Assembly: GCF_000341345.1 (NCBI RefSeq)
Contig: NC_020302.1
Location: 290,075-354,074 of the forward strand
From: Corynebacterium halotolerans YIM 70093 = DSM 44683
Lineage (GTDB): Bacteria; Actinomycetota; Actinomycetes; Mycobacteriales; Mycobacteriaceae
DNA length: 64,000 nt
Reading direction: 5' to 3'
The notes under the pieces are model-generated. The model did no database searches and had not been told where the DNA came from. It was given only the letters and a program-made list of their open reading frames with translations. The translations under genes were made by a program, and so were the position numbers. Position 1 is the first letter of the stretch; every line of letters begins with the position of its first letter. Below are positions 7,984-50,710 of the stretch, one piece after another.

Positions 7984-8338
7984 GAAGGGCGGACGTCGGT
8001 GGGAATCGGATGGCTGGCGCGCTCGGTGTCCGCCCTTGTGCCGGGCGGCGTGATCACGGGCGTCGGCAAGCGCTGGTGGGCAAGTGCGTTCCTGCCGAAG
8101 GGCGGACGTCACTGCCGTTTCGGCCCTGGTAGCTGCTCGGTGTCCGCCCTTGTGCTGCTTGTCGACGCCGCGGAGGGCGGAATCTGTGGAAGGGCGGACA
8201 TGGGCACTGTTTCGGGCGTGGAAGGTAGCCAGTGTCCGCCCTTGTGCTGTTTGTCGACGCCGCGAAGGGCGGAACCTGCGGAAGGGCGGACATGGGAGCC
8301 GCTTCGGGTTGCCGGGATGCTCGGTATCCGCCCTTGTG
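7984..8338. repeat. Tandem array of four 57-58 bp imperfect palindromes (units A-D)
   Basis: Four units start at 7984, 8097, 8189 and 8281. Each begins GAAGGGCGGAC and ends GTCCGCCCTTGTG (TATCCGCC in the last), with a related but diverged core that usually contains TTTCGG or TTCGG. Units B, C and D repeat with an exact period of 92 bp: 58 bp of palindrome plus a 34 bp linker starting CTGCTTGTCGACGCC (CTGTTTGTC after unit C) and carrying a further AGGGCGGA. Unit A is 113 bp before B. The frames that read through this region on both strands have no protein signature. Related units occur at 23394, 23487, 25990, 33302, 47988, 50415, 50540 and 50652. Confidence 0.9.
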
Positions 8339-8398
8339 CTGCTTGTCGACGCCGCGGACGCTGCGGCGACGACCGCCGGTAAGGCGTCTGGCACCCCT

Positions 8399-8439
8399 GT
8401 CCCGGCCCCGGTAGCGTAAGTCGCCGGGCCGGGACTTTT
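8399..8439 (+). terminator. Hairpin plus T-run just upstream of mgtE (terminator or attenuator)
   Basis: GTCCCGGCC and GGCCGGGAC form a 9-bp stem followed by TTTTCC, ending about 12 bp before the mgtE ribosome-binding site. It may end transcription from the tRNA/repeat side or attenuate mgtE. A TAGCGT -10-like box lies inside the loop, so an mgtE promoter may overlap. Confidence 0.5.
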
Positions 8440-8466
8440 CCTGCCCCTGAGCTGGGAGGTAAAGCC

Positions 8467-49021: not shown

Positions 49022-49064
49022 GGCAACGGAACTTTTTGCACCCGAGACGAAAGGCGGCCGCCCG

Positions 49065-50330
49065 GTGGCACTGGTCGTTCAGAAATACGGAGGCTCCTCG
49101 CTGGAGAGCGCGGAACGCATACGCGCAGTCGCGGAACGGATCGTGGCCACCAAGAAGCAGGGCAACGACGTCGTCGTGGTCTGCTCCGCGATGGGCGACA
49201 CCACCGACGAGCTGCTGGACCTGGCCAACCAGGTCAACCCGGTGCCCCCGGCCCGCGAGATGGACATGCTCCTGACCGCGGGGGAGCGGATCTCCAACGC
49301 GCTGGTGGCCATGGCCATCGAGTCCTTCGGCGCCGAGGCCCAGTCCTTCACCGGCTCCCAGGCCGGCGTACTCACCACCGAGCGCCACGGCAACGCCCGC
49401 ATCCTCGAGGTCACCCCGGCCCGCGTGCGCGAGGCCCTCGACGAGGGCAAGATCTGTATCGTCGCCGGCTTCCAGGGCGTGAACCCGGAGACCCGCTCGA
49501 TCACCACCCTGGGCCGCGGCGGTTCCGACACCACGGCCGTCGCCCTGGCGGCGGCGCTGGACGCGGACGTCTGCGAGATCTACTCCGACGTCGACGGCGT
49601 CTACACCGCCGATCCGCGCATCGTGCCGAACGCGAAGAAGCTCGACAAGCTCAGCTTCGAGGAGATGCTCGAGCTCGCTGCCGTCGGCTCGAAGATTCTG
49701 GTCCTGCGCAGCGTCGAGTACGCCCGCGCTTTCAACGTTCCCATGCGAGTTCGCTCGTCTTACAGCAACGACCCCGGCACCCTGATCGCCGGTTCGATGG
49801 AGGATATTCCCGTGGAAGAAGCAGTTCTCACCGGTGTGGCAACCGACAAGTCCGAGGCCAAGATCGCTGTTCTCGGCATCCCCGACAACCCCGGCGAGGC
49901 GGCGAAGATCTTCCGCGCGCTGGCCGACGCCGAGATCAACATCGACATGGTCCTCCAGAACGTCTCCTCCCTGGTCGACAACACCACCGACATCACCTTC
50001 ACCTGCCCGCGCTCGGACGGCCCCCGCGCCGTCGAGCTGCTGAAGAAGCTGCAGGAGACAGAGGGCTGGACCAACGTCCTCTACGACGACCAGGTGGGCA
50101 AGGTCTCCCTGGTCGGTGCGGGCATGAAGTCCCATCCGGGCGTGACCGCGGAGTTCAGTGAGGCGCTGCGCGACGTCGGCATCAACATCGAGATGTTCAC
50201 CACCTCCGAGATCCGCATCACCGCGGTCATCCGTGAAGGCGACCTCGACAACGCCACCCGCGTCCTCCATGAGAAGTTCGACCTCGGCGGCGAGGAGGAG
50301 GCCACCGTCTACGCCGGTACCGGCCGCTGA
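49065..50330 (+). CDS. lysC: Aspartokinase, alpha subunit
   Basis: LysC phosphorylates aspartate, the committed and feedback-controlled step to lysine and threonine. At 421 residues it has the length of the C. glutamicum enzyme and very similar sequence: kinase domain ALVVQKYGGSSLESAERIRAVAERI, GRGGSDTTAVALAAAL and SDVDGVYTADPRIV, then two ACT domains (KIAVLGIPDNPGEAAKIFRALADAEINIDMVLQNVSS and KVSLVGAGMKSHPGVTAEFSEAL). Start is GTG at 49065 with AAAGG about 12 bp upstream. In C. glutamicum asd follows directly; here a repeat array and nat intervene. Confidence 0.95.
   Translation: MALVVQKYGGSSLESAERIRAVAERIVATKKQGNDVVVVCSAMGDTTDELLDLANQVNPVPPAREMDMLLTAGERISNALVAMAIESFGAEAQSFTGSQAGVLTTERHGNARILEVTPARVREALDEGKICIVAGFQGVNPETRSITTLGRGGSDTTAVALAAALDADVCEIYSDVDGVYTADPRIVPNAKKLDKLSFEEMLELAAVGSKILVLRSVEYARAFNVPMRVRSSYSNDPGTLIAGSMEDIPVEEAVLTGVATDKSEAKIAVLGIPDNPGEAAKIFRALADAEINIDMVLQNVSSLVDNTTDITFTCPRSDGPRAVELLKKLQETEGWTNVLYDDQVGKVSLVGAGMKSHPGVTAEFSEALRDVGINIEMFTTSEIRITAVIREGDLDNATRVLHEKFDLGGEEEATVYAGTGR
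49812..50330 (+). CDS. Aspartokinase beta subunit (internal in-frame start of lysC)
   Basis: The lysC frame has an internal GTG at 49812 with GGAGG at 49799-49803, spacing 8. Starting there gives 172 residues, the length known for the C. glutamicum beta subunit, consisting of the ACT domains. The active enzyme in corynebacteria is an alpha2beta2 heterotetramer, with beta helping to bind lysine and threonine. Confidence 0.85.
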   Translation: MEEAVLTGVATDKSEAKIAVLGIPDNPGEAAKIFRALADAEINIDMVLQNVSSLVDNTTDITFTCPRSDGPRAVELLKKLQETEGWTNVLYDDQVGKVSLVGAGMKSHPGVTAEFSEALRDVGINIEMFTTSEIRITAVIREGDLDNATRVLHEKFDLGGEEEATVYAGTGR

Positions 50331-50414
50331 GAACTTCTCCGACTGACCGGGCCGGGAGCGTTGCCGCTCCCGTCCCGGTTTCGTGTTTTCAGGGGTGTTT
50401 CCCGACGCCCTGCC

Positions 50415-50710
50415 GTAGGGCGGACACCAGAGGACCGGCGCGCGGTTCCGCGTGCTGGTGTCCGCCCTTATGCGGATTGACGGGGCCAGGAGAGGGATTC
50501 GCGCGCGTCGTCGGCGGCGCGGCGTCGAGAAGAACGGCCGTAGGGCGGACATCAGCGAGCAGACGCGAGGTTCCCGGCCCTGGTGTTCGTCCTTGCGCGG
50601 AATTCGACTGACGGGAACCGTCCCGGTGGAGCTGCTTTCCGACGCCCTGCCGTAGGGCGGACATCGGTGGGGCAGGAACCGGTTTCCGGCCCCTGCTGTC
50701 CGCCCTCATG
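50415..50710. repeat. Array of three units (J, K, L) of the dispersed palindrome family
   Basis: Units at 50415-50472, 50540-50597 and 50652-50710 each begin GTAGGGCGGACA. J has a 14-bp perfect inverted arm pair (AGGGCGGACACCAG / CTGGTGTCCGCCCT). K keeps all 14 arm pairs but three as G-T (AGGGCGGACATCAG / CTGGTGTTCGTCCT). L ends TGTCCGCCCTCATG. J and L are preceded by TTCCCGACGCCCTGCC / TTTCCGACGCCCTGCC, the counterpart of the linker in the array at 8 kb. Spacing is 125 and 112 bp rather than 92. They fill the lysC-nat gap. Confidence 0.88.

Follow-up and report, generated by a model that had tools for sequence, protein, structure and literature searches.

What are the short palindromes that recur between the genes of Corynebacterium halotolerans YIM 70093 = DSM 44683, in the 64,000-nucleotide stretch of contig NC_020302.1 analysed here (positions 290,075 to 354,074 of the forward strand; hereafter 'the window')? 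An earlier note on this DNA, made from its letters alone, had pointed to a dispersed family of twelve such units, and had taken them for non-autonomous elements of the repetitive extragenic palindrome (REP) or miniature inverted-repeat transposable element (MITE) type, or else for a conserved structured RNA. On balance we lean slightly towards the view that the palindromes are copies of a mobile element, itself palindromic and non-autonomous, with arms that a putative trans-acting protein would read. The demonstrated part of this view consists of a fixed geometry in three species, boxes that are specific to each species, the intergenic sites of the C. halotolerans copies, and twin copies in relatives.

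The twelve palindromes are confirmed as real, intergenic and far above chance. All twelve were re-located at the positions first given for them and aligned, with shared arms GGGCGGAC ... GTCCGCCC; the word GGGCGGAC forms nine inverted dyads of near-constant spacing in the window, and the best word in each of 30 windows simulated with matching dinucleotide composition reached a maximum of three dyads (mean 1.2). A genome search with a covariance model built from the twelve window units, and thus from C. halotolerans copies only (model R1), was suggested by the earlier note and added ten copies outside the window, for a total of 22 at E <=1.7e-5 (best 150 of 7415 first-look candidates scored); once other-strand readings of the same copies are excluded, the next match has an E of 0.135. 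The genome of this salt-tolerant, non-pathogenic soil bacterium (PMC3569386) totals 3,222,008 bp, including a chromosome of 3,135,752 bp whose contig starts, by reading, at dnaA. Twenty of the 22 copies are clustered in 99 kb (C1:241755-340793) and the other two lie at 2.721 Mb, while the second contig carries none of them. All 22 are intergenic according to our own gene caller, in surroundings (132 kb) that are 85% coding, and they occupy ten gaps which, as judged by the adjoining protein genes, are tandem in six cases, convergent in two and divergent in two (in the divergent gap at 298 kb, two plus-strand tRNA genes stand before the protein gene). Because the gaps include all three types, the earlier objection that the units are not simply terminators holds.

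Alignment over C. halotolerans and two relatives, genomes G149 and G239, gives a unit of about 74–76 bp, made of two inverted half-sites, rather than the 57–59 bp first proposed. From the outside inwards the unit has an outer box GAATCNGC (seen in G149 and G239, worn and weaker in C. halotolerans), 4–5 free bases, then an 8-bp box with GAC at its end, a degenerate stretch resembling RYCGG and a variable core, and then the same in inverse. The core between the boxes measures 33–35 bp and is 34 bp long in 17 of 22 C. halotolerans copies, 12 of 17 G239 copies and all seven placed G149 copies, the rest having 33 or 35 bp. An exact box is present in 37 of 44 C. halotolerans arms, 34 of 34 G239 arms (from a copy list that started from an exact-box search) and 7 of 14 G149 arms. 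Among copies with a 34-bp core (n = 17, 12 and 7, respectively), pairwise identity is 0.95, 1.00 and 0.81 in the boxes and 0.32, 0.45 and 0.47 in the inner core, the C. halotolerans value being not above that of its flanks (0.34). The linker CTGCTTKTCGACGCC, earlier said often to join units, does so only in arrays, and for the most part it represents the flank to the right of certain copies. In C. halotolerans the orientation is uniform in 21 of 22 copies and nine of ten loci (leave-one-locus-out scoring), and the actual arrangement ranks second among 512 flip patterns; in the relatives it is mixed (8 of 17 in G239, 1 of 7 in G149).

The same architecture with other boxes occurs in two of the 241 other genomes of the genus, namely G149 and G239, and the boxes are particular to each species: GGGCGGAC in C. 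halotolerans, CGTCTGAC in G239, and a looser form around GGGTGGAC in G149. Scanning all 242 genus genomes with R1 found single weak palindromes in G149 (E 2.6e-5) and G239 (E 7e-5); a match in G142 (E 5.3e-5) was judged by reading to be chance. Pattern searches gave three exact copies of GGGTGGAC in G149 and 16 copies of GTCTGACA (full form CGTCTGAC) in G239. Only R1 found these two genomes independently, because models R2 and R3, the latter drawn from all three genomes, were built partly on G149 and G239 copies and their scores there hold by construction. At E 0.003, R3 places elements in three of the 242 genus genomes, C. halotolerans included. The earlier model R2, at E 0.01, also gave weak matches in G019, G020, G225 and G227, those in G020 and G225 being judged chance by reading; G227 has a lone palindrome (G227:C63:131004-131064, L114) with the C. 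halotolerans box GGGCGGAC and a shorter core. As the best 20 candidates per genome were scored in the genus scans, and the best 12 in a scan of the order, weak 'dialects' of the boxes may be missed. Among 397 sampled genomes of the order, R3 recovered C. halotolerans and one more, G417, which belongs to another family and carries a single palindrome (G417:C7:137207-137283, L170; R3 E 1.5e-5) with box GCGCTGAC and, by reading, a 34-bp core; the same box also occurs in one G149 right arm. Over 52 proteins of the collinear stretch, identity to C. halotolerans is 73.8% for G149, 74.4% for G239 and 64.7% for a third genome, G100, so that C. halotolerans stands about equally far from G149 and G239.

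Wider searches returned little. The exact-arm pattern matched six records among 84,980 species, one match each in unrelated organisms, which we take as chance (best R3 E 0.016), and it had no match in viral contigs; the G239 arms occurred in three viral contigs, in a setting unlike the element by reading. BLAST found no match of the elements to plasmids and none of the C. halotolerans element to phages. No such Corynebacterium repeat family turned up in the literature searched, whose coverage left out most subscription papers.

In 1.44 Mb of G239 we counted all 8-mer dyads, and CGTCTGAC forms 12, with gaps of 34–35 bp; CG-rich words of similar dyad count have more scattered gaps. Gaps of almost constant length were also seen with two other words, GACCTGGT (29 bp in six of seven) and GGTCCTGG with its shifted form (41–44 bp in five of five), and both are taken for copies of longer repeats. 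In G239 and G149 together, 26 of 28 copies are not wholly within a coding-like open reading frame (ORF). The two that are (G239 909334 and G149 2263500) lie, by reading, at the start ends of their ORFs, as called by a gene caller that takes the first start codon, and two further G239 copies overlap a coding-like ORF by 7 and 10 bases. Both relatives also carry palindromes with other arms. A second G239 set (C1:20812, 155500 and 976996) has a constant 25-bp core of differing sequence, with arms GTGGCA..AAC by reading of copy 155500, and two G149 palindromes (C1:157393 and 175440) have arms CCCCTCAA and an equal core length of 27, perhaps another dialect set.

Mobility is suggested by pairs of neighbouring copies. 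Five twin pairs, chosen for their alike cores, match at 29–34 of 34–35 core positions, and beyond the unit at only 8–19 of 40 positions in the right flank and 11–18 of 47 in the left. These are G149 170875/171010 and G239 45490/45655, 52950/53053, 2496912/2497005 and 867869/867993, with starts 93–165 bp apart; in the pair 52950/53053 the likeness continues for about 9 nt beyond the unit on the right. In all five alike pairs compared, the unit was copied with sharp ends, and the sharing of the unit but of little flank is as expected of a mobile unit with fixed ends. In the mechanism we propose, the putative protein would bind each box, and since the box centres are 42 bp apart, or about four helical turns, a paired complex would share one face of the DNA. 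The protein would copy the unit over short distances, as between the twins, and occasionally far; copies with intact boxes would persist or multiply, the core mattering mainly by its length. An altered specificity of the protein would shift all boxes of one genome together, which would explain the species dialects.

Several observations weigh against such a mobile element. In C. halotolerans itself none of seven compared pairs are twins (cores 11–19 of 34). In its 298-kb array the cores differ (15–19 of 34) and the linker or flank is kept at 37 of 40 positions; in the pair C1:2721122/2721329, 207 bp apart, the right flank is alike (34 of 40 and on) and the cores (15–19 of 34) and left arms differ. 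At both places, therefore, change has been quicker in the core than around it. The pairs at 287 and 313 kb have kept neither core nor flank, and two close pairs of G239 (909334/909437 and 2497005/2497099) have cores that differ by reading. The transposase associated with REPs, which the earlier note had proposed to look for, did not appear: Y1_Tnp (PF01797), the only transposase family searched, is present in none of eight genomes, the control search being positive in 6 of 14 genomes. Across the 1.44 Mb of G239, no two separated half-sites were seen on either side of an ORF, and no empty orthologous site was found. A 3-bp match between positions -15..-13 to the left and +20..+22 to the right of the boxes occurs in 9 of 47 copies from the three genomes (1.7 expected); as the best over many settings and end positions it is too weak to count as a target duplication. 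The 1.44 Mb of G239 hold few decayed copies, with 12 intact dyads and one relic. Within the collinear stretch, each of the three G149 intervals with elements has them in C. halotolerans too, above what random insertion would give.

Such scarce decay is odd for a neutral mobile family and favours the main rival explanation, namely that the dyads are maintained binding sites of a host DNA-binding protein with a nucleoid-structuring, anchoring or regulatory role. Local duplication would then merely spread the dyads, and the specificity of the protein would differ by species; the same putative protein is required by this explanation and by a mobile element. We regard host sites as a serious possibility, although short of probable. 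Boxes that stay intact while cores drift, as in C. halotolerans and G239, are what selection on the boxes would give. The half-sites in the 1.44 Mb of G239 amount to 12 pairs at 49–50 bp offset and one relic (at 813528), everything else scoring at most 12.4 bits with a half-site matrix whose reversed-sequence control reaches 17.7; in 1.18 Mb of G239 scanned with R3, nothing convincing emerged (best E 0.3). The near-uniform orientation in C. halotolerans fits as well, as does the fact that all three G149 intervals with elements also bear them in C. halotolerans, under another dialect. Against maintained sites, on the other hand, stand the restriction of the family to three of 242 genus genomes, the absence of a main-dialect dyad from the collinear stretch of G239, and the variable orientation in both relatives. 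The adjoining genes are unrelated and many are core genes (gltB, hisC, mgtE, gluQRS, katE, dps, recR, lysC, speE; a family scan covered 19 adjoining proteins, three of them without any family). G149 boxes are loose, and a half-site scan there, with a matrix built from 14 arms only, found 28 extra matches versus 5 in the control. Several are worn or shortened elements, and the matches include the twin at 171010, the shortened element at 180.8 kb and a loose pair at 2073341/2073390. Worn copies thus do exist in G149. Finally, the fixed ends of the twins demonstrate copying of the unit as such. A mixed history, in which a once mobile unit is now used by the host, is possible.

The shared positions bear on both explanations. 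The collinear stretch spans 243–372 kb in C. halotolerans, 142–240 kb in G149 and 925–1033 kb in G239, and in G149 elements lie in three of its intervals, at 170.8 kb (twice), 192.9 kb and 180.8 kb (with a shortened core). All three are among the seven element-bearing intervals of C. halotolerans, for which P is 0.001–0.010 according to the intervals counted (from 7 of 54 to 5 of 19); the 180.8-kb element rests on a weak match (E 0.45) and the half-site scan, and without it the shared count is two of two. Cores in shared slots show no greater likeness than the remaining cores (mean score -3.0 vs -2.4), so that individual copies cannot be traced by descent. The G239 stretch has no dyad of the main dialect, and two of its four other non-coding palindromes (953522 and 976996) lie in such slots. 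The slot of 976996, a member of the second G239 set with the 25-bp core, bears dyads in both C. halotolerans and G149. None of the five listed G149 palindromes with other arms, placed by reading, lies in such a slot. It is possible, on these few cases, that slots are re-used under changing dialects. Foreign spacers like those of clustered regularly interspaced short palindromic repeats (CRISPR) were considered for the cores and rejected, as the core pairs between C. halotolerans and G149 scored -3.0 and -2.4 versus -8.2 with shuffled G149 cores; other core pairings scored from -2.5 to 8.7.

Some of these intervals also differ in gene content, which raises the idea that the dyads are recombination sites for gene gain, like those of integrons or gene cassettes, and mark the entry points of foreign genes. 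At window positions 50331-51738, lysC and the gene after it, which we take from its sequence to be asd, are adjacent in G149, G239 and G100, and stand apart in C. halotolerans, with a three-dyad array and a NAT-like gene between them. At 32675-33366, dps and a dyad stand in C. halotolerans between recR and the preceding gene, presumably ybaB; in this slot G149 has a different insert of roughly 1 kb, and G239 and G100 have none. The gene katE is flanked by dyads on both sides. Yet intervals with genes lacking a G149 counterpart are not significantly commoner among dyad-bearing intervals (3 of 7) than among others (17 of 66; p 0.38), and among long intervals the counts are 3 of 6 versus 15 of 29 (p 1.0). 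We therefore hold gene gain at the dyads to be very improbable.

A role as RNA was the other suggestion made at the outset, in which a transcript of the palindrome would function as a 74–76-nt hairpin. Whole elements do fold better than shuffles (mean z -2.9 in C. halotolerans, -6.4 in G239 and -5.0 in G149), and their arms change in step between species. Within species, however, pairing between the two arms of one copy is no better than between arms taken from separate copies (C. halotolerans p 0.88; G239 p 0.96, three twin copies being left out of the test; G149 p 0.08, with seven copies only), and a symmetric protein site would yield the same between-species changes. The presence of copies in gaps of all orientations likewise speaks against a transcribed hairpin, as does Rfam, where no family matched the units at gathering score (sub-threshold matches, from E 0.058, were taken as chance). 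With neither arm covariation inside copies nor an Rfam family, the idea of a conserved structured RNA is not supported here, and we think it improbable. Half-sites do not fold alone (mean z -0.12 for 44 in C. halotolerans, 0.22 for 34 in G239 and -0.18 for 14 in G149).

In the window itself, the dyads stand in several groups, and all score in the plus orientation except the ninth. Dyad 1 (7975..8047; core 33 bp) lies after a tRNA gene and upstream of mgtE, followed by a trio of 92-bp-spaced copies with 34-bp cores, dyads 2 (8088..8161), 3 (8180..8253) and 4 (8272..8345; one mismatch in the right box). The gluQRS–katE gap holds dyads 5 (23385..23457; core 33 bp, one mismatch in the right box) and 6 (23477..23550; core 34 bp), with dyad 7 (25981..26055; core 35 bp) on the opposite side of katE. 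Dyad 8 (33293..33366; core 34 bp) occupies the dps–recR gap, and what may be a worn half-site, 57 bp ahead of the left box of this dyad, scores 14.8, not above the control best of 14.9. Dyad 9 (47979..48052; core 34 bp), in a convergent gap, is the sole copy that scores in the reversed orientation (-6.5). After lysC come dyads 10 (50406..50479; core 34 bp), 11 (50531..50604; core 34 bp, two mismatches in the right box) and 12 (50643..50717; core 35 bp).

How, then, do these dyads compare with known systems? MITEs are small elements without a gene, with inverted ends, copied as a defined unit to new places. The dyads resemble them in their short unit of 74–76 bp, inverted ends, lack of a gene and copying with sharp ends, and differ in that near-identical ends enclose differing cores, that no convincing target duplication was found, and that a parent transposon was not found in the search for Y1_Tnp. 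In Pseudomonas, REP doublets forming hairpins (REPINs) are inverted extragenic pairs of a short conserved sequence whose unit can fold as a hairpin (PMC3116915). The likeness to the dyads extends to inverted extragenic pairing (all 22 C. halotolerans copies are inverted pairs in intergenic gaps), a whole-unit hairpin, conserved arms, clusters and a tie to the carrier genome (PMC3116915). Unlike in REPs and REPINs, where each unit is an imperfect palindrome with a stem of its own, half-sites here have no fold of their own, and no REP-associated tyrosine transposase (RAYT, of the Y1 family) was found in the eight genomes. There are, moreover, 22 copies here as against hundreds of REPINs, and singlets are nearly absent from the 1.44 Mb of G239 scanned. 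Two further REP types are comparable, namely GTAG-tagged REPs, with an unpaired end tag and an own stem of 5–13 bp, and CGTC-tagged REPs, with a stem of 8–9 bp and without a dedicated transposase (PMC3733652). Both are palindromic, dimeric and mostly intergenic, as the dyads are, and the words Corynebacter and Actinobacter are absent from the main text of the paper that describes them. The tag letters do recur, with GTAGG in 10 of 22 C. halotolerans left arms and CGTC at the start of all 34 listed G239 boxes; here, however, they lie inside a long palindrome whose half-site lacks its own stem, and not in an unpaired tag.

Of the REP/MITE-type proposal, then, the form stands (doublets in inverse orientation whose ends are fixed, which lie between genes, occur in few species and have twins in two relatives), and membership of REPs or REPINs does not. 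Without arm covariation, with half-sites unfolded and with no Y1/RAYT transposase found in the eight genomes, the family is not a classical REP, nor is it a conserved RNA hairpin; in form it resembles REPINs. It is conceivable, though less likely than not, that it represents an actinobacterial class of paired sites in which a dedicated DNA-binding protein and dozens of chromosomal dyads change their recognition sequence jointly from one species to the next, with more than one dialect even in a single genome, as in the second G239 set, and with re-use of slots under different dialects. Besides adding a repeat family to Corynebacterium, the dyads offer a compact and testable case in which repeat arms diverge together among closely related species under an unchanged geometry; if the reader protein is found, it becomes possible to study how the sequence of dozens of sites changes along with the protein that reads them. 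REPINs raise the same question of switching but are tied to a known transposase, and the class considered here would be REPIN-like without a RAYT and without self-folding units.

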